64,000 nt of DNA from Cupriavidus metallidurans CH34 (GTDB lineage: Bacteria > Pseudomonadota > Gammaproteobacteria > Burkholderiales > Burkholderiaceae): assembly GCF_000196015.1 (NCBI RefSeq), contig NC_007974.2, positions 930,001 through 994,000 on the forward strand. The letters are read 5' to 3'. A program made the translations under genes and the position numbers. The notes under the pieces were generated by a model. The model saw only the letters and a list, made by a program, of their open reading frames with translations. It did not search any database and was not told the DNA's origin. Positions 18,965 to 36,997 of the stretch are shown piece after piece (within the stretch, counting starts at the first letter, position 1; each line of letters starts with the position of its first letter).

Positions 18965-19211
18965 GGAGTCGTGAAGTGGGGATCTGTAACTCCGCCGCAG
19001 GCGGCGAAGTTCGCTATTCAATCTACTGGTTAATGATGCGAGACAACCCAGGGCCATCCGGTTGCCGTCGCGCGTTCCTGCCAGCACGGCTGGAGCGGGA
19101 ATGGACAGAGACGGCACCAGGAAGAGGGAGATTCTACCTCGCATGCCGGCTCTCGGACCTCCAGGCGCAATATACGCCCCATCACGCGGCTGTTAATCCT
19201 GCTTTGCCTGA

Positions 19212-20961: not shown

Positions 20962-21096
20962 GCGAACTCCTTGAGGGGGTGGGCTTGGGCCGCTGGCCCG
21001 CAAGCGGACGACTGTCGACATGGTAGCGCACGGCTTGAGGCCGGCGTAGCCGATATAGCAAAGATTGAGGTTGTCGAATGGCGATTGTGAAATATA

Positions 21097-21111
21097 GTAT
21101 GTGATATATCA
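21097..21111 (-). promoter_or_regulatory. GntR regulon operator, copy 1
   Basis: AGTATGTGATATATC, in an extended block AAATATAGTATGTGATATATCAAAA almost identical to copy 3 at 25408. It lies 46 bp before the ketopantoate-reductase-like gene. The core TGTGATATA is shared by all six copies in the window. Confidence 0.8.
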
Positions 21112-21156
21112 AAATTAACCATCACTCAGCAATCACAACCATCGAGGAGACAACCG

Positions 21157-22164
21157 ATGAAAATTTGTATCTACGGCGCGGGCGCCATCGGCGGCTATAT
21201 GGGCGCGCAACTGGCGCTGGCCGGGGCGGACGTCAGTTTCATCGCCCGTGGGCCCCATCTGGCGGCGATGCAGGCAAACGGCGTGCGGTTGCTGATCGAA
21301 GGCGAGGAACGGGTGGCCAAGGTCCGTTGCGCCAGCGACCCGCACGAACTCGGCCCTCAGGACTATGTGTTCATCACGCTCAAGGCGCACCAGGTGCCTG
21401 GGGTGGTGGACCTGATGCAGCCGCTGCTCGGGCCGGACACTGCGGTGGTGACCGGCGTCAACGGCATCCCGTATTGGTACTTCCATCAGCACGGCGGCGA
21501 GTTCGCGGGGCGCACGCTGGAAAGCGTCGATCCTGGCGCCCGCCAATGGAATGGGCTGGGCCCGGAGCGTGCCATCGGCTGTGTGCTGTATCCAGCCGCC
21601 GAAATCATCGCGCCGGGCGTGATCAAGCATGTCTATGGCAAGAAATTCCCGATCGGGGAGCCGGACGGCACCCGCTCCGAGCGCGTGACCCGTCTGGCAG
21701 AGATGATGGCGCGGGCGGACATGGACGCCCCGGTGCGCGACAACATTCGCGACGAGATCTGGCTCAAGCTCTGGGGCAACCTCTGCTTCAACCCGATCAG
21801 CGCCTTGACGCATGCGACGCTCGACATCATTACGTCGGACCCGGCCACGCGGGCGCTGTCGCGCCAGATGATGCTCGAAGCGAAGCACATCGCCGAGAGC
21901 TTCGGTGTGCATTTCCGGGTAGACGTCGAACGTCGGATCGACGGTGCCGGTGCGGTTGGCGCCCACAAGACGTCGATGCTGCAGGATCTGGAGGCGGGCA
22001 GGGCGATGGAAATCGACCCGCTGCTGACGGTGGTGCAGGAGATGGGCCGAATGATCGGGCAGCCGACACCGATGATCGACGCGGTGCTCGGACTGATCAA
22101 GCAACGTGACCGGATGGCCCAGGCAGCGCCTTCAGGCGCGGCGCCAATGGCCAAGGCAGCCTGA
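21157..22164 (+). CDS. 2-dehydropantoate 2-reductase family enzyme
   Basis: PanE/ApbA-family NADPH-dependent 2-oxoacid reductase, 335 residues. The Rossmann motif is KICIYGAGAIGGYMGAQLA at the N-terminus; the catalytic Lys region is WLKLWGNLCFNPISALT (about residues 206-222), and the C-terminal helical domain carries HKTSMLQDLEAGRAMEIDPL. Ribosome-binding site GAGGAGAC. It stands behind an operator shared with the CoA-dependent catabolic genes and precedes their GntR regulator, so it may reduce a 2-oxoacid to a 2-hydroxyacid for that pathway rather than make pantoate. The symbol is left blank for that reason. Confidence 0.88.
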   Translation: MKICIYGAGAIGGYMGAQLALAGADVSFIARGPHLAAMQANGVRLLIEGEERVAKVRCASDPHELGPQDYVFITLKAHQVPGVVDLMQPLLGPDTAVVTGVNGIPYWYFHQHGGEFAGRTLESVDPGARQWNGLGPERAIGCVLYPAAEIIAPGVIKHVYGKKFPIGEPDGTRSERVTRLAEMMARADMDAPVRDNIRDEIWLKLWGNLCFNPISALTHATLDIITSDPATRALSRQMMLEAKHIAESFGVHFRVDVERRIDGAGAVGAHKTSMLQDLEAGRAMEIDPLLTVVQEMGRMIGQPTPMIDAVLGLIKQRDRMAQAAPSGAAPMAKAA

Positions 22165-22208
22165 AACGCGGACGGTCTGCCGGAAATCGGCGACAATCGG
22201 CATTGTGG

Positions 22209-22223
22209 TCAATGTGATATACG
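22209..22223 (-). promoter_or_regulatory. GntR regulon operator, copy 2 (degenerate)
   Basis: TCAATGTGATATACG keeps the TGTGATATA core and is followed by a second GATATAC (22224-22230 region). It lies 190 bp before the GntR gene and suggests autoregulation. The remaining leader to 22412 contains palindromes around CGCATGCG but no gene. Confidence 0.6.
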
Positions 22224-22412
22224 ATATACGAAAGGTCGGATTCGTCCCTTTCCAGGCCAGAACTCGCCGCATGCGGCGGGATTGATGCGCGAAACGCATG
22301 GCGTCATGCCAAACTTGACGTCATGCGTCACGCGCCAACCTGGTCCTGAATCGGCGAGTGCCATCGGCGGCCATTTGGGTCGCCGGGGCGCCGGCCATTT
22401 ACGAGTGCACTC

Positions 22413-23135
22413 ATGTCTGCCCAAAGCCAAACCGACGTCCAGCCGACTTCCGGCCTGACCCTTTCACTGCAGCCGATCAATGCGGGTGCCAGCCTGCGTG
22501 ACCAGGCCTACGCGATGCTGCGCCAGGCGATTGCCGATGCCGACATCTACCAGTCGCGTGACGAAGTCCGTCTGGACGAGCGCGTGCTGTCCGAAGCGCT
22601 CGGCGTCAGTCGCACGCCGATTCGCGAAGCCATGACCCTTCTGGAGCAGGAAGGCTTCCTGCGCACGGTGCCGCGCCGCGGCATCTACATCACGCGCAAG
22701 ACCAAACGCGAGATCGTCGAGATGATCCAGGTCTGGGGCGCGCTGGAAAGCATGGCCGCGCGGCTGGCCACGCTGCACGCCAGCGACGAGGAAATCGGCA
22801 AGCTGCGGCATATGTTCGACAGCTTCCGCGATGCCACGCCGGCCGAGCATATCGAGGAATACTCCGACGCCAACATCGCCTTCCATCAGGCGATCGTGCA
22901 GTTGTCGAAGTCGCAGATCATCATGGACTCGATCAAGAACATCTTTGTCCATGTGCGTGCGATCCGGAAGATGACGATCTCGCAGAGCGACCGCGCCGCG
23001 CGCTCGATCGTCGATCACCTGCGCATCATCGAGGCGCTGGAGAAGCGCGATACGGAGCTGGCCGAGCGGCTGGTGCGCCAGCACTCGCTGGATCTGGCGG
23101 ACTACGTCGAGAAGCACTGCGATTTTCTGGATTGA
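22413..23135 (+). CDS. GntR-family (FCD) regulator of the CoA-dependent catabolic regulon
   Basis: 240-residue FadR/FCD regulator. The winged HTH lies at about residues 25-95 (SLRDQAYAMLRQAIADADIY, then LDERVLSEALGVSRTPIREAMTLLEQEG), followed by the FCD helical bundle with ANIAFHQAIVQLSK and the C-terminal LAERLVRQHSLDLADYVEKH. It sits among genes carrying six near-identical operators and is the only GntR gene between them, so it is the natural candidate for their regulator. The effector may be a CoA thioester or carboxylic acid of the pathway. ATG 22413 begins SAQSQTDVQP. Confidence 0.9.
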   Translation: MSAQSQTDVQPTSGLTLSLQPINAGASLRDQAYAMLRQAIADADIYQSRDEVRLDERVLSEALGVSRTPIREAMTLLEQEGFLRTVPRRGIYITRKTKREIVEMIQVWGALESMAARLATLHASDEEIGKLRHMFDSFRDATPAEHIEEYSDANIAFHQAIVQLSKSQIIMDSIKNIFVHVRAIRKMTISQSDRAARSIVDHLRIIEALEKRDTELAERLVRQHSLDLADYVEKHCDFLD

Positions 23136-23200
23136 AAAGGGAGAGGGTGCGGAGGTTCAAATCGCGACTTATCGGTGATTGAGCCGCTGCCTCTCTCCCC

Positions 23201-23233
23201 TGTCCCCGCTCCCGCACTGCGGGAGCGGGGACA
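23201..23233. terminator. Long GC palindrome between convergent genes
   Basis: A 33-base near-perfect palindrome, TGTCCCCGCTCCCGCA on the left and its complement on the right with a single central base. It has no T run. It lies between the convergent gntR and sucD-like genes and may terminate both, or be a dispersed intergenic element (compare 31099-31136). Confidence 0.55.
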
Positions 23234-23247
23234 ACTGCCAGACCAAC

Positions 23248-24120
23248 CTACCGCATCGCCGCCGCCATCGTATTGCCCAGCTCCGCTGGAGACGCGGCCA
23301 CGTGGATACCCGCCTCGCGCATCGCTTCGATCTTGGCCTCGGCCGTGCCCGTGCCGCCCGATATGATGGCGCCAGCATGGCCCATGCGGCGGCCCGGTGG
23401 GGCCGTGGAGCCGGCGATGAATCCGACCACGGGTTTGCGAGTGCGCGCGTCGCGCAGGAATTGCGCGGCTTCCTCTTCGGCCGACCCGCCGATCTCGCCG
23501 ATCATGATGATGCCTTCGGTCTGATCATCGGCAAGGAACAGTTCCAGGCTGTCGATGAAGTTCGTGCCGTTGACGGGATCTCCGCCAATGCCGATGCAGG
23601 TCGATTGTCCAAGCCCCGTTGCCGTCGTTTGCGCCACCGCTTCGTAGGTCAGCGTGCCGGAGCGCGATACCACGCCGATCCGTCCCGGCTTGTGGATGTG
23701 CCCCGGCATGATGCCGATCTTGCACTGGCCAGGCGTGATGACGCCCGGGCAGTTGGGCCCGACCAGCCGGCTGGCGGAGCCGCTCAGCGCCCGCTTGACG
23801 CGCACCATGTCAATGACGGGAATGCCTTCGGTGATGCAGACGATCAGTCCGATGCCGGCATCCACGGCCTCGAGGATCGCATCGGCGGCGAACGGCGGCG
23901 GGACGTAGATGACCGACGCATCGGCGCCGGTGGCATGGGCGGCGGCCGATACGGTATCGAATACCGGCAGCCCCAGATGCGTCTCTCCGCCCTTGCCGGG
24001 CGTGACACCGCCAACCATTTTCGTGCCATAGGCCAATGCCTGCTCCGAGTGGAAGGTGCCTTGGGCGCCCGTGAAACCCTGGCAGATCACGCGCGTATGT
24101 TGGTCGATTAGCACGGCCAT
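23248..24120 (-). CDS. sucD: Succinyl-CoA synthetase alpha subunit, accessory copy
   Basis: 290-residue alpha subunit of a succinate/malate-CoA ligase (NDP-forming). Seen: the CoA-binding start [33 protein letters not shown], and the phosphohistidine loop [15 protein letters not shown] (His about residue 247). It pairs with the beta subunit 1 bp upstream on the same strand. Ribosome-binding site AAAGGAGGCAAG. The operon is divergent from the ThDP enzyme, with two operators between, so this is a regulated accessory enzyme rather than the housekeeping TCA enzyme. It could feed succinyl-CoA as a CoA donor or make a dicarboxyl-CoA. Confidence 0.9.
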
Positions 24121-24121
24121 T

Positions 24122-25333
<1,212 letters not shown>

Positions 25334-25407
25334 GTGTCTCCTCGCTTGTCTGTCACCGTGGCCGCAGGTCGGGGTCCGCCTGTCCGGTTTCACACGGCGT
25401 AAAATAT

Positions 25408-25422
25408 GGTATGTGATATATC
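25408..25422 (-). promoter_or_regulatory. GntR regulon operator, copy 3
   Basis: GGTATGTGATATATC within AAAATATGGTATGTGATATATCAAAA. It lies 75 bp upstream of the sucC-like start. The 395-bp divergent region 25334-25728 carries this site and copy 4 and no gene. Confidence 0.85.
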
Positions 25423-25633
25423 AAAAAGAAAATCAAGCTGGATTTGATGCTCTCGGCAAGTGGAGAAGGCTGTTCCAGGTGGCAGACAGACTTCAGAAGA
25501 CAATCGCATCAATGCCTTGTCATTGATCAGAAAGCGGCATTCTTTGCGGGTTAACGCCAAATGGGATGGGCTGCTTGCTGCGGTGCGTCGTTGAAAGTCG
25601 GCAGCGGCCAGCATTTTGTTCTTGTTGTTTGGT

Positions 25634-25648
25634 GGTATATCACATACC
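25634..25648 (+). promoter_or_regulatory. GntR regulon operator, copy 4 (perfect dyad)
   Basis: GGTATATCACATACC has perfect half-sites GGTAT and ATACC around five bases, the most symmetric copy. It lies 81 bp before the ThDP enzyme start and in opposite orientation to copy 3. Confidence 0.88.
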
Positions 25649-25728
25649 GTATGTCATCAAGATCGGCTGCTTTCCGAAGCGCAACGATCTGCGATCCGAC
25701 GATCCAGTCCAAACGAGGAGACAAAGAC

Positions 25729-27483
25729 ATGTCCGCTGTCGTATCCACCCGGCCCGAGACCACCACGGCTGAAGACACGCTGAAGCAAAAGTCCCGCGAC
25801 GCGGGCGTCATATCCGGCGGCCATCTGGTGGCTCGCGCCCTCAAGAACGAGGGGGTGGATACGATCTTCACGCTGTGCGGCGGGCACATCATCGACATCT
25901 ACGACGGTTGCGTGGATGAGGGCATTCGCATCATCGACGTGCGCCACGAGCAGGTGGCCGCGCACGCAGCAGATGGTTATGCGCGCCAGACCGGCAAGCT
26001 CGCCTGCGTTGTGACCACGGCAGGCCCTGGCTGCACGAACGCCGTCACGGGCGTGGCCACCGCGTTCCGTTCGGAAAGCCCGATCATCCATATCGGCGGC
26101 CAAGGCGCGCTGTCCCAGCACAAGATGGGATCGTTGCAGGATCTGCCGCACGTGGACATGATGGCGCCGATCACGAAGTTCGCGGCCACCATCCCCAGCA
26201 CCGAGCGCGTGGCCGACATGATTGCGATGGCCGCCCGTGAGTGCTTCAACGGCGCGCCGGGGCCGGCCTACCTGGAAATCCCGCGCGATGTGCTGGATCG
26301 TGAAGTCGATGTATCGCGTGCCGTGATTCCGCGCCCGGGCCACTATCGTGCCTCGACGAAGTCGATCGGCGATCCGCGCGACATCGAGAAACTGGCCGAC
26401 ATCCTCGTCAACGCCGAACGTCCGGCAATTCTCTATGGCCAGCAGGTCTGGACCGCGCGCGGGCATGAGGAAGCTGTCGACCTGCTGCGCGGTCTCGATA
26501 TCCCCGGCTATTTCAACGGCGCCGCACGTGGCCTGCTGCCCCCGGGCGATCCGCATCACTTCGACCGCACCCGTTCGCAGGCATTCGCCAATGCCGATGT
26601 GCTGGTGATCGTCGGCACGCCGTTCGACTTCCGCATGGGCTACGGCAAGCGCATCAGCAAGGAAATCACGCTGGTGCAGATCGACATGGACTACCGCACG
26701 GTGGGCAAGAATCGCGAGATCGATCTGGGCCTGGTGGGCGATCCGGGCGCGATTCTTGGCGCGGTGCTGCAGGCGGCCAGTGGCCGGATCAAGAACGATA
26801 AGCGCCTGGCGCGCAAGAAGTGGATGGGTCAGTTGACGGAAGCCGAAGCTGTGGCCACGGAAAAGCTGATGCCGCTGTTCAAGTCGGAGAACAAGCCGAT
26901 TCACCCGTATCGCGTGGCCTACGAACTCAACGAGTTCCTGGCCGACAACACGATCTATATCGGCGACGGTGGCGACGTGGTCACGATTTCCGCGCAGGCG
27001 GTGCGTCCGCGCCGCCCGGGCCAGTGGATGGACCCGGGCGCGCTCGGATCGCTCGGTGTCGGTACCGGCTTTGCGATTGCAGCGGGTGTGGCCAATCCAG
27101 GCAAGGAAGTGCTCTGCTACTACGGCGACGGATCGTTCGGCATGACCGCGTTCGACATGGAAACGGCCAACCGCTTCGGCGTGCCGTACCTGGCCGTCAT
27201 CGGCAATAACTCGGCGATGAACCAGATCCGCTACGGCCAGCTTGCCAAGTACGGCGACGACCGTGGCAATGTCGGCAACCTGCTGTCCGACGTGCCGTTC
27301 TCCAAGTTCGCCGAGATGCTGGGCGGATACGGCGAGGAGGTGCGCGAGCCGGGCCAGATCGCCGGTGCGCTGCAGCGCGGCCGCGAGTCGATCGCGAAGA
27401 CCGGCAAGTCCGCCGTCATCAATATCTGGGTGGACCCGCGCGAGTACGCGCCGGGCACAAAGAACCAGACCATGTACAAGTAA
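25729..27483 (+). CDS. ThDP-dependent lyase (benzaldehyde lyase / 2-hydroxyacyl-CoA lyase-like)
   Basis: 584-residue thiamine-diphosphate enzyme of the acetolactate-synthase superfamily. The cofactor-activating Glu is in IIDVRHEQVAAHAADGYAR (Glu74); the ThDP/Mg motif is YYGDGSFGM...NN near residue 465. The N-terminal FTLCGGHIIDIYDGC keeps a His (53) at the position of the benzaldehyde-lyase active-site His, and ALSQ..GSLQD..MMAPITKF also reads like that enzyme. Canonical oxalyl-CoA decarboxylases have YGVPGIP and GDSAFGF instead, so it is not a standard Oxc. Followed by formyl-CoA transferase with 54 bp between; likely it forms formyl-CoA from oxalyl-CoA or a 2-hydroxyacyl-CoA. ATG 25729 follows GAGGAGACAAAG; the frame upstream contains the operator. 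Confidence 0.85.
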   Translation: MSAVVSTRPETTTAEDTLKQKSRDAGVISGGHLVARALKNEGVDTIFTLCGGHIIDIYDGCVDEGIRIIDVRHEQVAAHAADGYARQTGKLACVVTTAGPGCTNAVTGVATAFRSESPIIHIGGQGALSQHKMGSLQDLPHVDMMAPITKFAATIPSTERVADMIAMAARECFNGAPGPAYLEIPRDVLDREVDVSRAVIPRPGHYRASTKSIGDPRDIEKLADILVNAERPAILYGQQVWTARGHEEAVDLLRGLDIPGYFNGAARGLLPPGDPHHFDRTRSQAFANADVLVIVGTPFDFRMGYGKRISKEITLVQIDMDYRTVGKNREIDLGLVGDPGAILGAVLQAASGRIKNDKRLARKKWMGQLTEAEAVATEKLMPLFKSENKPIHPYRVAYELNEFLADNTIYIGDGGDVVTISAQAVRPRRPGQWMDPGALGSLGVGTGFAIAAGVANPGKEVLCYYGDGSFGMTAFDMETANRFGVPYLAVIGNNSAMNQIRYGQLAKYGDDRGNVGNLLSDVPFSKFAEMLGGYGEEVREPGQIAGALQRGRESIAKTGKSAVINIWVDPREYAPGTKNQTMYK

Positions 27484-27537
27484 AGGCCGGTCGCCAGCAC
27501 GACATTGCCTCAAGAGAATCCTCAAGGAGACAACGCC

Positions 27538-28770
27538 ATGAACAACAAGGCACTGGAAGGGGTCCGCATTCTGGACATGACGCATGTGCAGGCCGGCCCG
27601 TCGGCCACCCAGCTGATGGCCTGGCTGGGTGCCGATGTCATCAAGGTGGAACTGCCCGGTCGCGGCGACATCACGCGTAGCCAGCTGCGCGATGTTCCGA
27701 ACGCGGACAGCCTCTACTTTACGATGCTGAACTCGAACAAGCGCAGTCTGACGTTGAACATGAAGACGCCGGAAGGCAAGGCGCTGCTTGAAGACCTGGT
27801 GCAGCGCTGCGACGTGCTGGTGGAGAACTTCGGGCCGGGCGTGCTGGATCGCGCCGGGTTCGACTGGGACCGCCTGCAGTCGCTGAATCCGCGCCTGATC
27901 TACGCATCGATCAAAGGCTTCGGCCCCGGCCCGTACGCCGATTGCAAGGCGTACGAGAACGTGGCGCAGTGCATGGGCGGCTCGGCCAGCACCACTGGCA
28001 ACGAAGACGGCGTGCCGACGGTGACCGGCGCGCAGATCGGCGATTCGGGCACGGGCGTGCATTGCGTGGTCGGCATCCTGGCCGCGCTGCTGCACCGCGA
28101 GCAGAGCGGGCGTGGGCAGCGGGTGGAAGTCGCCATGCAGGACTCGGTGCTGAACCTGTGCCGCGTGAAGCTGCGCGATCAGCAACGGTTGTCGGCCGGG
28201 CCGCTCAAGGAGTATCCGAACGACGATTTCCAGGACTACGTGCCGCGCGCTGGCAATGCGTCCGGTGGCGGACAACCGGGTGCGGCGCTGCGCTGCTCGC
28301 CCGGTGGCGCCAACGACTTCGTCTACGTCATCATCCAGCCGCAGGGCTGGGAGCCGCTGATGCGCCTGTGCGGCCGCGAGGATCTGATCACGCATCCGCA
28401 GTTCGCCACGCCGGAGGCTCGCCTCAAGTGCCTGGCCGAGTGCTTCTCGATCGTCGAGAAATGGACGCGGACCAAGAGCAAGTTCGAGGTGATGGCGGCG
28501 CTTAATGACGTTGACGTGCCGTGTGGCCCGATCCTGTCGATGAAGGACCTGATCGAGGATCGCTCGCTCTACGAACGTGGCTATATGGTCGAACTCGACC
28601 ATCCGGAGCGCGGCAGGTACGTGCAGCTCGGCTGCCCGATCTCGCTGTCGGCATCGCCGGTGGAAGTCGAGCGCTCGCCGCTGCTTGGCGAGCATACCGA
28701 AGAGATCCTCGAGTGGCTCGGCCGCACGCCGTCGCAAATCGTCGCGCTCAAGGCCGCCGGCGCGGTGTAG
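27538..28770 (+). CDS. frc: Formyl-CoA transferase (CaiB/BaiF family)
   Basis: 410-residue class III CoA transferase closely resembling Oxalobacter formigenes Frc. The opening [20 protein letters not shown], the catalytic aspartate in [12 protein letters not shown] (Asp169, the same number as in Oxalobacter), [18 protein letters not shown] and the glycine loop ASGGGQPG are all there. It moves CoA from formyl-CoA to an acid, oxalate in the known enzymes, by a covalent aspartyl mechanism. ATG 27538 follows AAGGAGACAACGCC. It is second in the operon after the ThDP enzyme, which would produce the formyl-CoA it uses. An imperfect hairpin (28820-28860) follows the stop. Confidence 0.92.
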
Positions 28771-28936
28771 CCCTCCACACCCTCAACGCACACTCTCTCA
28801 ACCGATTCCGGCGAAATCCGCAGGCCGCCCGCATCTCCAATGCGTGGCGGGTGGGCCTGCTTTCGCCCTGCGCAGCCCATCCGGGCCGCGTTTTTCGCCT
28901 GCCCCTCATTCATGCCTGAACAGATGGAGACCTGAC

Positions 28937-31066
28937 ATGGCACATGACAAGGATGCTGTACGCAAGATTCTCGCAATCGCCAAGAAGGAAGGCCGCAATG
29001 CGCTGACCGCCCCCGAAGGCAAGCTGGTTTGCGATGCCTATGGCATCTCTGTGCCAGGGGAGGGCGTCGCCAGGTCGCCCACGGGCGCGGTGGAACTGGC
29101 CAGCAAGATGGGATACCCGGTGGTGCTCAAGATCGTGTCGCCGGACATCCTGCACAAGACCGAAGCCGGTGGTGTGCTGGTGGGTGTGAACTCGGCCGCC
29201 GACGTGGAGCGCGGCTATCTGACGATCGTCGAGAACGCGAAGAAGTACAACGCGAATGCGCAGATCGTTGGCGTGCAGGTCCAGCAGATGATTGGCGGCG
29301 GGCAGGAGGTGATCATCGGCGCGGTGACCGACCCGTCGTTCGGCAAGCTGGTGGCATTCGGCCTGGGCGGCGTGCTGGTGGAGGTGCTCAAGGATGTGAC
29401 GTTCCGCATGGCGCCGGCCACCTATGACGATGCGCTGTCGATGCTCGATGGCATCGCCGCGGCGGACGTGCTCAAGGGCGTGCGCGGCGCGGACCCGGCC
29501 AATCGCGAGGCGCTGGCCGGGATGATCCAGCGCGTGTCCGAACTCGTGAGCGATTTCCCCGAGATCTCCGAGCTTGACCTGAATCCGGTGTTCGCCAGCA
29601 AGGACGGCGCGATTGCCGCCGACGTGCGCATCGTGATCGACGACTCGCCGCAGCCGGAGAAATACCGGCCGAGCCAGGAAGAGATCGTGCGGCAGATGAA
29701 CCGGATTATGCGGCCCGACACGGTGGCGGTGATCGGCGCATCGGCCGAGGACGGCAAGATCGGCAACTCGGTCATGAAGAACCTGATCAATGGCGGCTAT
29801 CAGGGCAAGATCTACCCGATCCACCCGAAGGCCGACGAGATCATGGGCATGACGGCCTACAAGAGCGTGCTCGACGTGCCGGGCGATGTCGATGTGGCGG
29901 TCTTCGCTATCCCGGCCAAGTTCGTCGCGCAGGCATTGGAGGAGGTCGGCAAGAAGGGTATTCCGGGTGCGGTGTTGATTCCGTCCGGATTCGCCGAGAC
30001 CGGCAATGTGGAGGGCCAGGAGGAGATTGTCGCCATCGCCCGCAAACACAATATCCGGCTGATGGGGCCGAACATCTACGGCTTCTACTACACACCGAAG
30101 AACTTGTGCGCGACGTTCTGCACGCCATACGACGTCAAGGGCAAGGCTGCGCTGTCGTCGCAGTCGGGCGGTATTGGCATGGCGATCATCGGGTTCTCGC
30201 GCTCGGCCAAGATGGGGGTGTCCGCGATTGTCGGGCTCGGCAACAAGTCCGATATCGACGAGGACGATCTGCTCACGTTCTTCGAGCAGGACGACAACAC
30301 CGAGATCATCGCCCAGCACTGCGAGGACCTGAAGGATGGCCGGTCGTTCGCCGAAGTGGCACGTCGCGTCTCGAAGAAGAAGCCGGTGGTGGTGCTGAAG
30401 GCAGGCCGCACCAGCCTTGGCGCGCGCGCCGCAAGCTCGCACACGGGCGCGCTGGCAGGCAATGACAAGATCTACGAGGACGTCTTCAAGCAAGCAGGCG
30501 TGATCCGCGCCCGCTCGCTGCGCGACTTGCTCGAGTTCGCGCGCGGCATTCCAAAGCTGCCGACGCCGACGGGCGAGAACGTGGTCATCATCACCGGCGC
30601 GGGTGGCTCGGGCGTGCTGCTGTCCGATGCGTGCGTGGACAACGGACTGTCGCTGATGACGATGCCCGATGACCTGGACGCGGCGTTCCGCAAGTTCATC
30701 CCGCCGTTCGGCGCGGCCGGCAATCCGGTGGACATCACCGGCGGCGAGCCGCCCTCCACGTACAAGAACACGATCAAGCTCGGCCTGGAAGATCCGCGTA
30801 TCCACGCGATCATCCTGGGCTACTGGCACACGATCATCACGCCGCCGATGGTCTTTGCCAAGCTCGTGGTCGAGGTGAAGGAAGAAATGCGCGCGAAGGG
30901 CATCGAGAAGCCGATCGTCGCGTCTCTGGCCGGTGACGTGCAGGTCGAGGAGGCTGCGGAGTACCTGTACGAGCACGGCGTGCCGGCCTATGCGTACTCG
31001 ACGGAGATTCCGGTGGCGGTGCTCGGCGCAAAGTACAAGTGGGCGCGAGGGGCGGGCAAGATCTGA
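28937..31066 (+). CDS. ADP-forming acyl-CoA ligase, fused beta-alpha form
   Basis: 709-residue NDP-forming acyl-CoA synthetase of the acetate-CoA ligase (ADP-forming) family. The ATP-grasp (beta) domain comes first (about 10-230; KMGYPVVLKIVSPDILHKTEAGGV, GLGGVLVEVLKDVTFRMAP), then the CoA-binding domain (about 250-390; DTVAVIGASAEDGKIGNSVMKN) and the ligase/phosphohistidine part (ASSHTGALAGND, His about 502). The common bacterial order is alpha first. It could conserve the energy of formyl-CoA or another thioester as ATP, or activate the substrate. ATG 28937 follows ATGGAGACCTGAC; similarity starts there although the frame is open further upstream. Third gene of the operon. Confidence 0.9.
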   Translation: MAHDKDAVRKILAIAKKEGRNALTAPEGKLVCDAYGISVPGEGVARSPTGAVELASKMGYPVVLKIVSPDILHKTEAGGVLVGVNSAADVERGYLTIVENAKKYNANAQIVGVQVQQMIGGGQEVIIGAVTDPSFGKLVAFGLGGVLVEVLKDVTFRMAPATYDDALSMLDGIAAADVLKGVRGADPANREALAGMIQRVSELVSDFPEISELDLNPVFASKDGAIAADVRIVIDDSPQPEKYRPSQEEIVRQMNRIMRPDTVAVIGASAEDGKIGNSVMKNLINGGYQGKIYPIHPKADEIMGMTAYKSVLDVPGDVDVAVFAIPAKFVAQALEEVGKKGIPGAVLIPSGFAETGNVEGQEEIVAIARKHNIRLMGPNIYGFYYTPKNLCATFCTPYDVKGKAALSSQSGGIGMAIIGFSRSAKMGVSAIVGLGNKSDIDEDDLLTFFEQDDNTEIIAQHCEDLKDGRSFAEVARRVSKKKPVVVLKAGRTSLGARAASSHTGALAGNDKIYEDVFKQAGVIRARSLRDLLEFARGIPKLPTPTGENVVIITGAGGSGVLLSDACVDNGLSLMTMPDDLDAAFRKFIPPFGAAGNPVDITGGEPPSTYKNTIKLGLEDPRIHAIILGYWHTIITPPMVFAKLVVEVKEEMRAKGIEKPIVASLAGDVQVEEAAEYLYEHGVPAYAYSTEIPVAVLGAKYKWARGAGKI

Positions 31067-31157
31067 CGCGTTCGGTTGTTCGGTCGTTCGTACGGCTGCC
31101 TCTTTCCCTCTCGCGCTGGCGTGAGAGGGAAAGAGGGCCAGCGCTTCCATTGCCAAG

Positions 31158-31199
31158 GCCCTCGACATGACAGCCCACGTCGAGGGCTTCTTCTTTTTT
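31158..31199 (+). terminator. Rho-independent terminator inside the operon
   Basis: GCCCTCGAC (31158-31166) pairs with GTCGAGGGC (31179-31187), followed by a T-rich tail (TTCTTCTTTTTTC). A second palindrome, CCTCTTTCCCTCTC / GAGAGGGAAAGAGG, lies just upstream (31099-31136). They separate the CoA ligase from the FAH-family gene, so the latter may be expressed at a lower level or have its own start. Confidence 0.8.
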
Positions 31200-31213
31200 C
31201 ATAAGGAGCCCCC

Positions 31214-31990
31214 ATGCAGCAAACCTGGATTCGCTTCCGCAGCCCACGCGGAGACACTGGCTTCGGCCTCGTCGATGGCGATCGCGTCATCGTGTACGAC
31301 GGCCCCGGCTACACCGGCTCGAAGCCCACCGGCGCCGTGCTGCCCCGCGACGAAGTGCACCTGCTGGCGCCGTGCGAGCCGGGCAAGATCGTCGCGCTAT
31401 GGAACAACTTCCACGCGCTGGCGCGCAAGCTCGAGAAGCCCGTGCCGCTGCATCCGTTGTTCCTGATGAAGCCGGCCAGTTCGCTGGCCGGGCCTGGCGA
31501 TGCCATCGAGCGGCCCGCCAGCTATCGCGGCAAGATCGTCTATGAAGGCGAGCTCGGGATCGTTATCGGCCGCAAATGCCGCAATGTGGGCGTGTCGGAG
31601 GCGGCCTCGCACATCTTTGGCTACACGGTGGTCAACGATGTCACCGCGGCCGAGTTGATCACCGAAGACCCGAACTTCCCGCAGTGGACGCGGGCCAAGG
31701 GTTACGACACGTTCGGCTGTCTGGGGCCGGGCATCGTCACCGGCTTCGACTGGCGCGCCGCCAGCGTTGTAACGCGGCTCGATGGCGTGGAGCGGCAGAA
31801 CTATCCGCTCGCCGACATGGTCTTCTCGCCCGAAGAACAGGTCAGCCGGATCTCACAGGATCTGACGCTGATGCCCGGCGACGTGATTGCCTGCGGTACT
31901 TCGCTCGGTGTCGGATCGATGAAGGACGGCGCGGTGGTCGAGGTGTCGATCGCCGGAATCGGCGCCTTGGTCAACCACGTGAAGGGATAG
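31214..31990 (+). CDS. Fumarylacetoacetate hydrolase-family protein
   Basis: 258-residue FAH-superfamily enzyme. The metal ligands are in VYEGELGIVIGRKC (E-x-E) and the downstream Asp in TVVNDVTAAEL; the C-terminal GDVIACGTSLGVGSMKDG closes the family fold. Such enzymes hydrolyse or decarboxylate beta-dicarbonyl acids, or act as oxaloacetate/acylpyruvate hydrolases. ATG 31214 follows ATAAGGAGCCCCC. It is the last gene of the ThDP/Frc/ligase block and ends at a bidirectional terminator. Its place suggests a ketoacid or oxaloacetate side reaction, which is only inference. Confidence 0.88.
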   Translation: MQQTWIRFRSPRGDTGFGLVDGDRVIVYDGPGYTGSKPTGAVLPRDEVHLLAPCEPGKIVALWNNFHALARKLEKPVPLHPLFLMKPASSLAGPGDAIERPASYRGKIVYEGELGIVIGRKCRNVGVSEAASHIFGYTVVNDVTAAELITEDPNFPQWTRAKGYDTFGCLGPGIVTGFDWRAASVVTRLDGVERQNYPLADMVFSPEEQVSRISQDLTLMPGDVIACGTSLGVGSMKDGAVVEVSIAGIGALVNHVKG

Positions 31991-32002
31991 CTGAAGGGCG
32001 GC

Positions 32003-32034
32003 AAAAGGCCCCCCACAACTGCAAGGGGCCTTTT
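32003..32034. terminator. Bidirectional terminator between convergent genes
   Basis: AAAAGGCCCC (32003-32012) pairs with GGGGCCTTTT (32025-32034). The A and T runs serve both strands. It ends the FAH-family gene and the minus-strand 102-residue gene. Confidence 0.9.
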
Positions 32035-32056
32035 CACCGAGAGAAAGGCTCGGCGA

Positions 32057-32365
32057 TCAGTTGACGCCGGCGCCTGCCATTGCCCGCATGTACTCGCTCT
32101 TCTTATCGAAGATGAGTTCGCTCAGGAACGATGCCTCGTAGGCCTTCAACAGGTGAGCGTGGAAGTCCTCGATATAGCGCGCGACGCGGGTCTTCTCGCA
32201 TTCGATGCCGCAGAGCCAGTCGAACATCTGCATGTCCCAGCGGAAGCGCAGCCCGAGTTCGGCGAACGCGGCGTTGTACGCGGCGAGCTGCATTTCGCGA
32301 TCAGGCTGGCCCTTCTCGCTGACTGCCGGGGCGGTAATCGGTGCGGCGGGCTGGAGTTGGTTCAT
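32057..32365 (-). CDS. Small conserved hypothetical protein, 102 residues
   Basis: A soluble protein with a Pro/Ala-rich N-terminus and a helical core rich in aromatic residues (YNAAFAELGLRFRWDMQMFDWLCGIECEKTRVARYIEDFHAHLLKAY). It has a very good ribosome-binding site (AAGGAGACGATC), the same style as the neighbouring catabolic genes. I do not recognise the family. It lies between the FAH-family gene (convergent) and a LysR gene on the same strand, and may be a small partner of this catabolic island. The Cys residues (WLCGIEC) could bind a metal but no known motif is evident. Confidence 0.72.
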   Translation of the reverse strand: MNQLQPAAPITAPAVSEKGQPDREMQLAAYNAAFAELGLRFRWDMQMFDWLCGIECEKTRVARYIEDFHAHLLKAYEASFLSELIFDKKSEYMRAMAGAGVN

Positions 32366-32477
32366 GATCGTCTCCTTGCAAGGCAGGTGGGGCGGCTTGA
32401 TGCCGGTTTGATGCCTGCAGCTTAGATGGGACGATCGATTTACGATAATTAAAGTTTCATCGCAAAATCATAAGCAA

Positions 32478-33428
32478 TCATTTATGGATGGCGCGCGGGC
32501 GAATCAGCCCCTCCACGCCAGTGATCTGCTGGATCAGCGTGGCGCCTTCTTCCATGAGGAAATGCTTGAATGCCAGGGCCACGGGTGGCAGGCGCTTGTT
32601 TTTGCGGTGCACCACGTACCAGTTGAGCATCACCGGGAAGCCCTGGATGTCGAGCACGGCCAGCTTGCCGGCCTGAAGTTCCAGGCCCACCGTGTGGGCT
32701 GACAGGAAGGCGATGCCCATGTTCGCGATTACCGCCTGCTTGATGGTCTCGGTGCTCTTGATCTCCATCGCGATGCGCAGGTTCGACAAGCGGCCCGCGA
32801 AGCCTTCCTGCATCGAATTCCAGGTGTCCGAGCCTTTCTCGCGCGAGACGAATGCTTCCTCGGCCAGGTCAGCCAGCGGGATATTGCGCTGGTCCACCAG
32901 CGGATGGTTCGGCGCGGCGACAATCACGTAGGGGTGGGGGGCGAATGCTTCGGCGATCGTATCCATGCCTTCCGGCGGGCGAACCATCACCGCCAGATCG
33001 GTCAGGTTGCCGGCTAGCTGATGCAGCAGTTCCTCGCGATTGTGCACGGCAAGATTGAGCGTGACCGATTCGTGCCGGTTCATGAACTCGGCCAGCAGGC
33101 GGGGGAAGAAGTAGTCACCGGCACTGATAACCGCGACGTTGAGGCGGCCCCCGGATATACCCTTAAGCTGCGCCATCGCGTCTTCGGCCTCGCGGAACTG
33201 CTGGATGATGCATCGGCTGTAATGCAGCATCTCGGTGCCGGCCGGCGTCAGGTAGATGCGCTTTCCAAGCTGCTCGAAGAGGGGCAGGCCGACATGGAGT
33301 TCGAGCTGTCGAACCTGTGTGGAAACAGCAGGTTGCGTGAGATGAAGCTCCTCCGCCGCGCGTGAGAAGCTCAGATGGCGGGCCACTGTTTCGAACACTT
33401 TCAGCTGGCGAAGCGTCGCGTTCTTCAT
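32478..33428 (-). CDS. LysR-family regulator, CbbR-like
   Basis: 316-residue LysR regulator whose N-terminus (KNATLRQLKVFETVARHLSFSRAAEEL, then LTQPAVSTQVRQLELHVGLPLFEQLGKR) resembles CbbR/RbcR regulators of autotrophy operons. The effector domain is standard (about 90-300). It is divergent from the first OFA permease, with a 216-bp region containing direct repeats ATGATC at 33453 and 33463 in an AT-rich stretch. It likely controls that permease and possibly the 102-residue gene. The link between oxalate/formate use and CO2 fixation in Cupriavidus makes the CbbR-likeness notable, but function here is inferred only from position. Confidence 0.85.
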   Translation of the reverse strand: MKNATLRQLKVFETVARHLSFSRAAEELHLTQPAVSTQVRQLELHVGLPLFEQLGKRIYLTPAGTEMLHYSRCIIQQFREAEDAMAQLKGISGGRLNVAVISAGDYFFPRLLAEFMNRHESVTLNLAVHNREELLHQLAGNLTDLAVMVRPPEGMDTIAEAFAPHPYVIVAAPNHPLVDQRNIPLADLAEEAFVSREKGSDTWNSMQEGFAGRLSNLRIAMEIKSTETIKQAVIANMGIAFLSAHTVGLELQAGKLAVLDIQGFPVMLNWYVVHRKNKRLPPVALAFKHFLMEEGATLIQQITGVEGLIRPRAIHK

Positions 33429-33644
33429 CGCACGATATCCTGCAATCTATAAATGATCGTCAATGATCATAATAAAAAACTTTATGCTGTGCTGATCTAA
33501 GTTTGAAGTAGCATCAATCCACAGATGCAACGTGCCGCAATGTCAGGCGCGCTCATTCAGTAGTGAAAAAGTCGGGCGTCCACAAGGCCAGCCCAGCAGT
33601 CGCGCCACCAGAGCGCGAAAGACACTAATGCAAGGAGACACGAC

Positions 33645-34988
33645 ATGGCGCACACCAACGCGGCAGGCCCCGCCGTGGGCAACTTCAACGGCGGGCTGCT
33701 TCGCAACCGCTGGTTCCAGCTCTTCATCGGCGTGATCTGCATGGGGCTGGTGGCCAACCTCCAGTATGGCTGGACATTGTTCGTCACCCCCATGAATGCC
33801 CGGCACCACTGGGGCGAATCGGCGATCCAGGTCGCATTTTCCATTTTCATCGTCACCGAAACCTGGCTCGTGCCGCTGGAAGGCTGGCTCGTCGACAAGT
33901 TCGGGCCCCGCCCCGTGGTGGCCGGCGGCGCGATCTGTGCCGGACTGGCGTGGGTGATGAACTCGTACGCCACGACCCTGCCGATGCTGTACACGGCTGC
34001 CGTGATCGCGGGGATTGGCGCCGGCGGTGTCTATGGCACGTGCGTCGGCAATGCGCTGAAGTGGTTCCCGGACAAGCGCGGCCTGGCGGCAGGACTGACC
34101 GCTGCGGGCTTCGGCGCGGGCTCGGCGCTGACGGTGATTCCCATCGCCAACATGATCCAGAAGTCCGGCTATGAGCACGCCTTCTTCACATTCGGCATCC
34201 TGCAGGGTGTGCTGATCTTCGCGATGGCGCTGCTGCTGGTGAAGCCGCAGCCGCCCAAGGGCGTGGTGGCGAACAAGGCCATCCTGACCAACCCGGTTGA
34301 GTTCACGCCGGGCCAGATGGTGCGCACGCCGGTCTTCTGGGTGATCTATGCCTCGTTCGTGGCGGTGGCCGCGGGCGGCATCATGGCTACCGCGCAGCTT
34401 GGGCCGATTGCCAAGGACTTCGGGTTTGCCTCGATGCCGGTCACGATGCTTGGCATGACACTGCCGCTGCTGACGATGACGCTGTCGATTGACAATCTTT
34501 GCAACGGGCTCACGCGTCCGCTGTGCGGCTTTATTTCCGACCGCATCGGCCGCGAGAACACGATGTTCGTGATCTTCATTGGTGAAGGACTGTCGCTGAT
34601 CGGGCTCCTCGAACTGGGCCATGACCCCTACTGGTTCATGCTCTTCGCCGCGCTGACCTTCCTGTTCTGGGGCGAGATCTTTTCGATCTTCCCCGCGCTC
34701 TGCGCCGATACGTTTGGCAGCAAGTTTGCCGCGGCCAACGCCGGCACGCTCTACACGGCGAAGGGCACCGCCGCGCTGCTGGTGCCGCTGGCGTCCGTGC
34801 TGTCCCACCACGGTGGCTGGAACCTGGTGTTCACGGTGGCGGCCGTAATGACCGTGGCGGCCGGGCTTTCCGCCAAGTTCGTGCTGCAGCCGATGCGTCG
34901 CCGCTTCATCACCGGCCACGCGATGGCGCAGCCGGTCAGCGATCACGCGACATACATGGCCGGGTTCTCGACCGGCAAGGGTGAATAA
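33645..34988 (+). CDS. OFA-family MFS permease (OxlT-like), copy 1
   Basis: 447-residue, 12-segment major facilitator of the oxalate:formate antiporter (OFA) group. N-terminal RWFQLFIGVICM and QYGWTLFV, and the loop KWFPDKRGLAAGLTAAGFGAGS, are group hallmarks. Two basic residues that correspond by my reading to the oxalate-contacting Arg272 and Lys355 of OxlT are kept (NGLTRPLCG and YTAKGTAALL). It would exchange or import oxalate or a related carboxylate. The ribosome-binding site CAAGGAGACACGAC precedes ATG 33645. It is divergent from the CbbR-like gene and has no GntR operator. A paralogue is at 36998. Confidence 0.9.
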   Translation: MAHTNAAGPAVGNFNGGLLRNRWFQLFIGVICMGLVANLQYGWTLFVTPMNARHHWGESAIQVAFSIFIVTETWLVPLEGWLVDKFGPRPVVAGGAICAGLAWVMNSYATTLPMLYTAAVIAGIGAGGVYGTCVGNALKWFPDKRGLAAGLTAAGFGAGSALTVIPIANMIQKSGYEHAFFTFGILQGVLIFAMALLLVKPQPPKGVVANKAILTNPVEFTPGQMVRTPVFWVIYASFVAVAAGGIMATAQLGPIAKDFGFASMPVTMLGMTLPLLTMTLSIDNLCNGLTRPLCGFISDRIGRENTMFVIFIGEGLSLIGLLELGHDPYWFMLFAALTFLFWGEIFSIFPALCADTFGSKFAAANAGTLYTAKGTAALLVPLASVLSHHGGWNLVFTVAAVMTVAAGLSAKFVLQPMRRRFITGHAMAQPVSDHATYMAGFSTGKGE

Positions 34989-35020
34989 CCGGTCCGGCGA
35001 ATGCGGAAAGGAGCGGCAGC

Positions 35021-35950
35021 ATGAATGTATCGCTTCCCCAGTTGAAGGCTTTCGCTGCGGTGGCTCGCCAAAAGAGCTTCACGCGAGCCGCGGCAGAGCT
35101 TGGGCTGACACAGTCGGCCATCAGCCGGAGCGTGCGCGAACTGGAAGAGGAGATCGACCAGCGGCTGTTCGATCGCACCACGCGCCAGGTGGAGTTGACC
35201 GATGCGGGCGAGATGCTGTCGCAACGGATCTGCCATCTGGTCGAGGAAGTCGAACAGACACTGCGCGATAGCCACGGCACCGGCAAACCGTGTGAAGGCA
35301 CGGTGCAGATCGCCACCGATCCGGTGTTGTCATCGATGACGCTGCCGATGTGGGTGGCTGGCTGCCGCAAGGCGTGGCCCGGCATCGGCATCACGCTGCG
35401 CGACTGCTCGCATGAATGCGTGCTGCAGCGTGTGCGTAGCGGAGAGGTCGATTTCGGCATCGCCAGCAATCCGGCGCCTTGCGACGATCTTTACTGTGAA
35501 CCCCTGTGCGTGGATCCTTTCCAGGCCGTGCTGCCGGCGGGGCATCCTCTGGCGGCGCGGGAGTCACTGGGGTGGGGCGAACTGGGCGATGCGTCGGTGC
35601 TGACGCTCGATCAGAGTTCCGGCATCCAGCCCGCGGTGGAGCGCGCGCTGGCCGCCTATCGCGTACGCCCGGGCTCGTTGCAGGTACTGGGCCATTTTGC
35701 TGCGGTATTCGGCATGGTGGCGATGGGGTTGGGGATCGGTGTGGTGCCATCGCGGGCGCAGGCCGCTGGTATTGCGCCCTCGGCAGTGCTGCGCCCGTTG
35801 CGTCCGCAGGTGACCTCGAACGTCATGCTCGTGCGCCGCAAGGCCCGGTCGCTCAAGCCAAATGCGGCGGCGGTGTGGGACAACCTGCGTGCCCAGGAGT
35901 ACGAGCGTGGCGATTACGGCAATCAGGGGTTGCTGAAGAAAGTGGGGTAG
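35021..35950 (+). CDS. LysR-family transcriptional regulator
   Basis: 309-residue LysR regulator with a clear HTH (NVSLPQLKAFAAVARQKSFTRAAAEL, then LTQSAISRSVRELEEEIDQRLFDRTTRQ) and effector domain from about residue 90. It starts 32 bp after the OFA permease stop on the same strand, with ribosome-binding site GGAAAGGAGCGGCAGC, and is followed by its own terminator. It is probably co-transcribed with the permease. Effector and targets are not known. Confidence 0.88.
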   Translation: MNVSLPQLKAFAAVARQKSFTRAAAELGLTQSAISRSVRELEEEIDQRLFDRTTRQVELTDAGEMLSQRICHLVEEVEQTLRDSHGTGKPCEGTVQIATDPVLSSMTLPMWVAGCRKAWPGIGITLRDCSHECVLQRVRSGEVDFGIASNPAPCDDLYCEPLCVDPFQAVLPAGHPLAARESLGWGELGDASVLTLDQSSGIQPAVERALAAYRVRPGSLQVLGHFAAVFGMVAMGLGIGVVPSRAQAAGIAPSAVLRPLRPQVTSNVMLVRRKARSLKPNAAAVWDNLRAQEYERGDYGNQGLLKKVG

Positions 35951-36036
35951 GGCATTGAATCGAATTCACGTGCGGCACTGCCGCAGGCGTATTCCGATCA
36001 ACTTTTGATGCGACGGACGTTCAATTTGAGATGCGC

Positions 36037-36068
36037 AACGCACCCTACGGGGTGCGTTGTTGCTTTTA
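36037..36068 (+). terminator. Rho-independent terminator
   Basis: CAACGCACCC (36037-36046), loop TACG, GGGTGCGTTG (36051-36060), then TTGCTTTT. It ends the permease-lysR unit. Confidence 0.9.
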
Positions 36069-36084
36069 GAGCGACAGGTCTATT

Positions 36085-36099
36085 GATATATCACATACA
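36085..36099 (+). promoter_or_regulatory. GntR regulon operator, copy 5
   Basis: GATATATCACATACA within TATTGATATATCACATACAACATAT. It lies 70 bp upstream of the 72-residue membrane peptide gene and just after a terminator, so it must act on that gene. Confidence 0.82.
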
Positions 36100-36168
36100 A
36101 CATATTTACAGACGCCGCAGTGCAGCATATACTGAGGACTCCTTGATCTATCTCACTTAGGAGTTTTC

Positions 36169-36387
36169 ATGAACGCCGTACTGCTTTCCGCCATCGCCCT
36201 CGGTTTGATCGCGACGGGTGTCGCCGTGACCTACCTGCTGGCAACGCGCCTGCCGATGCGCTTGCTGGCCACGGCGCAAGACCATGGTCGTTTCGCCGGA
36301 CTCGGGTCCACGCAGGAAATTGACGGTGCGGGCCGCGCAACGCCGAGCACCTCCACATCGGTGCAGCCGCAACTCGCGCACGCCTGA
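36169..36387 (+). CDS. Small single-pass membrane protein, 72 residues
   Basis: Short gene with ribosome-binding site TTAGGAG seven bases before ATG 36169. Residues 3-26 (AVLLSAIALGLIATGVAVTYLL) form one hydrophobic membrane segment; the remainder is a polar, Thr/Ser/Gly-rich tail without cysteines. It may also be an uncleaved signal. No family is recognised. Its own GntR-regulon operator shows it belongs to the catabolic regulon, so it may help the OFA permease or be a small membrane regulator. The 475 bp after it hold no other gene. Confidence 0.62.
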   Translation: MNAVLLSAIALGLIATGVAVTYLLATRLPMRLLATAQDHGRFAGLGSTQEIDGAGRATPSTSTSVQPQLAHA

Positions 36388-36862
36388 TACTCCCAGGCGA
36401 GTTTTACCAGCAGGAGCCTTGTGACGGCCGGCAACTCCTGATGTCCAGCAGTACCGAGCAGTTTCCCCACGGCCGTTCCTCCCTTGTTTCCGCTTCGTTT
36501 CGTTCAGACGCTTCCACGCAAGCCTGTCGAACCGGTCTCCGATCTTCCCGATTCCCTTTCGGGTTCATGCGGTGGTGTGCTGAACCACCCGCCACTCATC
36601 CGTTGCCTGTCTGATTCGCCGCTTGGGACTTTCCCTAGGGCGGTCGATTCACGACGTGCGCCGCAACATTTCACGCCGGCTTTTTCCGGTCGTGCATTGA
36701 TGCCGGATTTGTACCTAAGTCATTGATCCGGAATGAGGCTTGCCGGGGTAGGGCAGTGCGTTTGATGCACCCTGCGCACCATTGATCCAGCCCCTCGAAA
36801 ACCGTCGTCAAGAATGTCTGCACGATAGGTCAGGCAGGCATCCAAATCGCCTTGACACTGTT
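36388..36862. other. 475 bp without a supported gene
   Basis: Open frames (plus 36484-36726, minus 36720-37049) lack good start signals and family features; the latter runs into the start of the next permease gene. A long leader or small RNA is possible. Nothing definite is seen. Confidence 0.4.
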
Positions 36863-36877
36863 GATATATCACATACC
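36863..36877 (+). promoter_or_regulatory. GntR regulon operator, copy 6
   Basis: GATATATCACATACC within TTGATATATCACATACCGTATAGCAC, 120 bp before the second OFA permease. A TTGACA-like element (TTGACACT at 36852) lies just upstream and could be the -35 hexamer that the operator would occlude. Confidence 0.85.
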
Positions 36878-36997
36878 GTATAGCACTAGAACGGCTCAGC
36901 TGTTCGAGATCAGCAGGGTGAAGCGACGCGATACACCAGAGGCATCTCCGCAGATGCCCATCCACAACGGCGACCAAGGTTGCCAGAAGGAGACACC

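Follow-up and report, generated by a model that had tools for sequence, protein, structure and literature searches.

The question raised by one part of the Cupriavidus metallidurans CH34 genome is why a single 15-base element should stand upstream of six transcription units within 16 kb, and which protein would recognise it. The stretch of DNA analysed, here called the window, comprises 64,000 nucleotides (contig NC_007974.2, positions 930,001 to 994,000). We propose, with a probability of about 0.82, that GntR 22413, the GntR-family protein of the FCD subfamily whose gene begins at position 22413 of the window, controls a single oxalate-utilisation regulon with these six elements as its operators. 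In this genome the element is confined to the oxalate cluster; other Cupriavidus retain it at the same promoters, Paraburkholderia near the same genes, and its occurrence is tied to the presence of GntR. These comparisons make a well-supported case, at the level of sequence, for a new regulon of a known type of regulator, of which binding, sign and effector are what we infer.

The initial annotation described six copies of the element, each upstream of a transcription unit, the fourth being a perfect GGTAT-N5-ATACC dyad. All six are present, every one lies upstream of a gene and the dyad was borne out; five of the positions given were right, whilst the first copy begins at 21096 and not 21097. 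The candidate operators are listed here with the promoters predicted beside them (ThDP, thiamine diphosphate).

21071..21098, plus strand: putative panE promoter, TTGTCG (21071-21076)-16 bp-TATAGT (21093-21098), predicted from a conserved block
21096..21110, plus strand: operator copy 1, upstream of the panE-like gene, overlapping the -10 hexamer and the start-site region
22209..22223, plus strand: operator copy 2, TGTGATATACGATATAC, about 190 bp upstream of gntR
25408..25422, plus strand: operator copy 3, on the sucCD side of a divergent promoter region
25622..25650, plus strand: putative promoter TTGTTG-17-TACCGT, its spacer filled by copy 4, predicted from conservation, a consensus promoter scan having found nothing at copy 4
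25634..25648, minus strand: operator copy 4, the perfect dyad, in the spacer of this putative ThDP-frc-ligase promoter
36085..36099, minus strand: operator copy 5, immediately before the -35 of the gene for a 72-residue peptide
36105..36133, plus strand: promoter-like TTTACA-17-TATACT of the small peptide gene (10/12 in the consensus scan)
36852-36857 and 36874-36879, plus strand: putative OFA2 promoter, TTGACA-16-TACCGT
36863..36877, minus strand: operator copy 6, in the spacer of the putative OFA2 promoter

The core TGTGATATA is matched six times in the window, against 0.05 matches expected in shuffled sequence. Across the whole genome of 6,913,352 bases the 11-base core TATGTGATATA, with which uniqueness was counted and which copy 2 does not match, occurs five times; none of these matches lies away from the oxalate cluster, so that the motif is not common elsewhere, which the initial annotation had named as grounds for refuting its reading, and the reversed control has no match genome-wide. 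Compared with the 15-base consensus GRTATGTGATATATC, copies 1 to 6 carry 1, 5, 0, 1, 1 and 0 mismatches (full matches at 25408 and 36863, single mismatches at 21096, 25634 and 36085, five of 15 at 22209). The consensus first proposed therefore fits copies 1 and 3-6, but is too tight for copy 2, a distinct, divergent form which, because of its five mismatches, joins the set through the 9-base core alone. When GKTATGTGATATATC is searched genome-wide, up to one mismatch returns the same five cluster sites and two mismatches add one more; at up to three the element gives 43 matches and its reversed control 30. What stands out is therefore confined to the five sites that differ at one position or none. 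As the operators overlap promoter-like hexamers, the element might be thought a product of chance or a general AT-rich promoter element. The shuffle expectation and the genome-wide search rule this out, two congeners that lack the GntR gene have no motif match, and the probability left to such an origin is negligible.

The genes that these sites precede, and those between them, are the following.

21157..22164, plus strand: PanE/ApbA-family (ketopantoate-reductase family) oxidoreductase, probable oxalyl-CoA reductase / CoA-acylating glyoxylate dehydrogenase
22413..23135, plus strand: GntR-family regulator, FCD (FadR) subfamily (PF00392 and PF07729), proposed repressor
23248..24120, minus strand: sucD-like succinate-CoA ligase alpha subunit (NCBIfam)
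24122..25333, minus strand: sucC-like succinate/malate-CoA ligase beta subunit, likely GTG start at 25333
25729..27483, plus strand: ThDP-dependent enzyme, 2-hydroxyacyl-CoA-lyase-like, in the place that oxc takes in other species
27538..28770, plus strand: frc, formyl-CoA:oxalate CoA-transferase, likely ATG start at 27538
28937..31066, plus strand: NDP-forming acyl-CoA ligase, likely ATG start at 28937
31214..31990, plus strand: fah, fumarylacetoacetate-hydrolase-family protein, downstream gene of the ThDP-frc-ligase operon
32478..33428, minus strand: LysR-type regulator 1 (LysR1), divergent from OFA1, its promoter without an operator
33645..34988, plus strand: OFA1, oxalate/formate antiporter (TIGR04259, 653.4 bits against a cut-off of 335)
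35021..35950, plus strand: LysR-type regulator 2 (LysR2), by family profile
36169..36387, plus strand: putative membrane peptide of 72 residues, a recurrent member of the oxalate locus
36998..38323, plus strand: OFA2, oxalate/formate antiporter (TIGR04259, 628.6 bits against 335)

With its PanE-like protein, frc (623.5 bits against the TIGR03253 cut-off of 504.2), CoA ligases and two oxalate/formate antiporters, the cluster is a Cupriavidus oxalate locus. The probable oxalyl-CoA reductase role of the PanE-like protein is taken by analogy from C. necator ApbA2, concluded in the accessible portion of PMC7486775 to be a CoA-acylating glyoxylate dehydrogenase; the same portion reports that apbA2 and frc-oxc matter for growth on oxalate, which deletion of frc-oxc abolished. 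These findings and the gene identities together mark the six sites as belonging to an oxalate regulon. Upstream of OFA1 there is no operator of this type. A terminator-like hairpin at 36035-36060, after LysR2, separates that gene from the operator-controlled peptide gene.

GntR 22413 has an N-terminal winged helix-turn-helix (PF00392, 46.6 bits against a gathering score of 27) and a C-terminal FCD domain (PF07729, 91.3 against 24.3). In 20 aligned orthologues the recognition-helix segment SRTP(I/V)REA(M/L)TLLEQ(E/D)GF(L/I)R is common to all, and three histidines (in FH, DH and RxH contexts), which may belong to the metal-binding Asp/His set of the FCD pocket, are invariant.

Fifty-seven gntR loci were compared: 35 of Cupriavidus type (L065-L094, L101, L103, L117, L119 and L120), seven from Paraburkholderia/Burkholderia (L095-L100 and L102), one from Caballeronia (L104) and 14 alphaproteobacterial. 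GntR orthologues in the Cupriavidus records are up to 97% identical. The exact core lies near gntR in all 35 Cupriavidus-type and all seven Paraburkholderia-type loci, in the Caballeronia locus, with diverged flanks, and in none of the 14 alphaproteobacterial ones. At the panE site it is kept in 34 of the 35 Cupriavidus-type loci (the exception is L093), immediately preceded by TATAGTA in 33 of them; the gntR site is kept as TGTGATATACC in 27 of 35, with ATATAC next in 26. The sucC-side site was found in nine of ten orthologous gaps examined, five times as TGTAATATATC, and these variants mean that the core, invariant within the window as the initial annotation had it, is not strictly so in relatives. 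Some loci gave split tblastn matches, of panE (L072, L188), the ligase (L072, L094) and the ThDP gene (L188), which could be sequencing errors or decay. In two congeners (L132, L134) a different recurrent site, TATGTGATATACAATATATTA, stands beside genes without an oxalate match and is perhaps another regulator's.

Where GntR has diverged, so has the dyad. Six of seven loci in genus g34 (L166 and L168-L172, not L167) have CGGTATGTGGTATATC upstream of gntR, and alphaproteobacterial loci, with GntRs 59-68% identical to 22413, have GGTATCTCATATACG, GGTATCTTATATACG or GGTATGTAGGATACG near gntR. In 13 of the 14 alphaproteobacterial loci GGTAT-N5-ATAY occurs in the 400 bp preceding gntR, compared with 9 of 600 other windows from the same loci.

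Sites also occur outside the cluster in relatives. The first-listed sites in congeners and other relatives gave 28 loci (L036-L063), of which 11 have the site upstream of an OFA-family gene; these remote genes are about 50% identical to OFA2 and are separated from gntR by 44 kb or more or lie on a different contig. A further 20 chosen regions include eight at such remote OFA genes, four at the in-cluster OFA2 and one (L141) at an unlabelled 447-residue open reading frame (ORF) beside an OFA match. In genus g33 the site stands at an OFA gene 82-84% identical to OFA2 in five of nine fetched loci; in G003 some 250 kb separate the remote site from gntR, and in G028 the two are on different contigs. 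The single regulon proposed at the outset is supported for this genome, where the operator is confined to the cluster, but its 16-kb limit is exceeded in relatives, in which the predicted regulon extends to OFA targets in trans.

The motif and GntR travel together. In a first sample of 60 relatives, a GntR orthologue (87-97% identical) was present in 34 of 35 congeners and the motif in the same 34, G016 having neither; the orthologue was absent from all 24 genomes taken from the order's other families, two of which had one motif match each. The sample was extended to 299 genomes of the family, with GntR called at E <=1e-60 and the motif as the longer pattern TATGTGATATAYC: 111 have both, 35 GntR only, one the motif only and 152 neither (Fisher 2.7e-49, without phylogenetic correction). 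By genus, the motif is found in 38/38 genomes with GntR against 0/2 without in g1, 35/35 against 0/3 in g44, and 31/35 against 0/5 in g33. Single TATGTGATATA matches in g35 without GntR were rejected as operators: in the eight loci read (L146-L151, L154 and L155) the match is made by the last codons, TAT GTG ATA TAG, of a conserved ORF of 483 residues, and the longer pattern eliminated such matches.

Several observations weigh against the assignment to GntR 22413. The 35 genomes with GntR and no exact motif fall in g34 (27), g33 (4), g49 (3) and g37 (1); within g34, in GntR's favour, the exact motif is present in both genomes whose GntR is 87% identical (G105, G129) and missing from 27 of the 28 whose GntR match is weaker (E 1e-103 to 1e-108; identity, where listed, about 72%), G294 being the exception. 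The genome with the motif only, G278, has LysR1, and GntR was not found there. Seven of the 20 further regions hold the site next to no recognised oxalate gene, five of them without a match to TATGTGATATAYC. Copy 2 fits the operator poorly. The alphaproteobacterial loci are closely related, their 13 of 14 amounting to about three independent sequences, and only 24 of all 74 gntR loci have the strict GGTAT-N5-ATAY dyad upstream of the gene (106 of 2960 windows in the background); in Cupriavidus the site at gntR has the other form, which accounts for the low count. Finally, LysR1 has almost the same distribution as GntR: across the 299 genomes, 109 have LysR1 and motif, 36 LysR1 only, three the motif only and 151 neither. 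Co-occurrence alone therefore names no binder, and the phyletic pattern was set aside as sole proof.

This last result gives substance to the view that the operators are bound by one of the LysR proteins (32478-33428, or the one beginning at 35021) acting as an oxalate-responsive activator, to which the gene content of G278 lends further weight; LysR sites, too, can contain a GTAT/ATAC dyad. LysR regulators usually bind their own divergent promoter, however, and the lysR1-OFA1 divergent promoter has no operator-like site in any of eight loci. Sites inside a core promoter, where the operators appear to lie, are unusual for LysR activators. Three genomes, G024, G287 and G324, have GntR and the motif without LysR1 (E 1e-90). 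G324 has a single TATGTGATATAYC site, separated by 263 bp from an orphan gntR downstream of it; nothing but a small-peptide ORF intervenes, and the 46 kb of that contig read contain no panE, frc, ThDP, OFA or LysR match. Nor is there a lysR1 match in the alphaproteobacterial loci whose gntR promoters carry a dyad. These three genomes, the bare lysR1-OFA1 promoter and the diverged dyads separate GntR from LysR1, and binding by a LysR protein is distinctly unlikely.

It is also conceivable that the binder is an unlinked regulator or the product of the second GntR-FCD gene (18272-19144, minus strand), which lies about 2 kb to the left of copy 1. As had been claimed, 22413 is the sole GntR gene between the copies; the second protein is only 33% identical to it and has no match in the fetched flanks of several motif loci (for example L073, L084, L092 and L095-L100), and the motif tracks the 22413 orthologue. 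We regard this alternative as very improbable. GntR 22413, initially named as the likely binder, is thus supported in that role by conservation, by co-occurrence in the 299 genomes, by the orphan gntR and by the diverged dyads.

The placement of the sites bears on the mode of control. Of the sites within oxalate clusters, 61 distinct ones face frc, oxc, ThDP or OFA genes; 59 of these have TTG, and 57 TACNGT, at a constant place, with the operator filling the 17-bp spacer between them. All 23 distinct sites at remote OFA genes have TTG, with a spacer of 16 or 17 bp, and 17 of them have TACNGT. At panE the operator sites overlap the -10. Operators within the -35/-10 spacer or over the -10 favour repression, which is the likely mode. 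Against simple repression stands copy 5: it immediately precedes a good -35 (TTTACA-17-TATACT), a position that would suit an activator too, so that activation or another mode is possible there; a similar layout precedes small-peptide ORFs in relatives (L095, L096, L135). That GntR is mainly an activator or a dual regulator is nevertheless rather unlikely, given that the frc/oxc/OFA and panE classes carry the operator inside the predicted promoter, where a bound protein would block polymerase.

If GntR 22413 is a repressor, its dimer would occupy kGTAT-N5-ATAYc across the -35/-10 spacer at the ThDP-frc operon and OFA2, the -10/start region at panE and, in autoregulation, the upstream region of gntR itself, blocking RNA polymerase. 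The FCD domain may then bind oxalate or one of its products (oxalyl-CoA, formyl-CoA or glyoxylate), which would release the dimer from the DNA and allow joint synthesis of OFA2, the CoA-transferase, the enzymes that consume oxalyl-CoA, the oxalyl-CoA reductase and the CoA ligases.

The ThDP-dependent enzyme sets this operon apart. It scores 225.8 bits against the cut-off of 739.4 for oxalyl-CoA decarboxylase (Oxc, TIGR03254), which no match in the whole genome reaches, and 349.1 bits against 600 for 2-hydroxyacyl-CoA lyase (HACL, NF058623); the nearest PDB chain is the HACL 7pt3 (274.7 bits, against 190.1 for the Oxc 7ayg). In an alignment with Cupriavidus Oxc, its residue correspondences read by eye, the Tyr134-Glu135 pair and the C-terminal Ser568 loop of Oxc, numbered as in the accessible portion of PMC8411744, have no counterpart. 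Together the low score, the want of an Oxc match in the genome and the missing active-site residues rule out the enzyme as an Oxc. Among 60 congeners, with the ThDP enzyme called at E <=1e-180 and Oxc at E <=1e-100, the former is present in 14 and the latter in 42 (40 above the TIGR03254 cut-off). Only G340 has both; 13 have the ThDP enzyme only, 41 Oxc only and five neither (G335, G337, G238, G016 and the 54%-complete G012), a near-exclusivity (Fisher 2.1e-8, without phylogenetic correction) which, with its position, suggests that the ThDP enzyme replaces Oxc. The Oxc-type genomes G018 and G010 have frc (91-94%), ligase, LysR1, OFA1, LysR2, peptide and OFA2 in window order; the ThDP gene is missing and fah is in another operon. 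In C. necator, short ThDP-like matches upstream of frc (L089, 10920-11147; L091, 13395-13550) are possible remnants of a lost ThDP gene.

The 72-residue peptide has no Pfam or NCBIfam match. It contains a conserved HGRFAGLG stretch and has matches in oxalate loci of Cupriavidus, Paraburkholderia, Caballeronia and g34, where it often adjoins gntR; of its 20 homologues, three are labelled oxalate:formate antiporter by the source despite the length of 72 residues.

A broader reading joins these strands: one GntR/FCD repressor would govern oxalotrophy from the Burkholderiaceae into Azospirillum through a co-evolving dyad, 14 of 60 Cupriavidus operons would hold, with one exception, a lyase-type ThDP enzyme in place of Oxc, and the recurrent membrane peptide would be a third part of the pathway. 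Taken as a whole this is tentative, and we put it somewhat below even odds. If true, oxalyl-CoA would be handled by other chemistry, either another decarboxylase mechanism or a carboligation/cleavage feeding the CoA ligases.

In the open-licence PMC literature searched, no regulator of oxalate use in these genera is named. The accessible portion of PMC7486775 makes no mention of GntR, and a GntR protein tied to oxalate genes was not found in the accessible portions of PMC5987411, PMC12927642, PMC3886118, PMC8411744, PMC8305402, PMC11728337, PMC10535843 and PMC9004370, or in PMC9476978. In soil bacteria the use of oxalate is important in colonising roots (PMC3886118, accessible portion) and in protection against oxalate-secreting fungi (PMC12927642, likewise). 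A defined operator, regulator and target list make induction testable in C. necator H16 and offer a candidate oxalate-responsive promoter for sensors, while the Oxc-less oxalate operon and the small membrane peptide are flagged for biochemistry.

Members of the FadR/FCD subfamily (LldR, GlcC, NanR, PdhR, UxuR, CsiR) typically have dyad operators around promoters, target carboxylate pathways and regulate their own genes; GntR 22413 shares their winged helix-turn-helix and FCD domain. Unlike those named members, it reaches no NCBIfam equivalog cut-off (phnR_burk, NanR, LldR, GlcC, PdhR, CsiR, UxuR), the best being TIGR03338 phnR_burk with 101.8 of 271.5 bits, and to our knowledge the operator kGTAT-N5-ATAYc with its oxalate targets matches that of no named member. 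Oxc and HACL belong to the same ThDP superfamily as the window enzyme, which, like Oxc, lies beside frc and behind the same operator. A close parallel is the C. necator locus, which likewise has panE, gntR, frc, fah and OFA1 and the same operator (L082, L089, L091); the C. necator loci read carry canonical oxc, whereas the locus described here carries the lyase-like ThDP enzyme.

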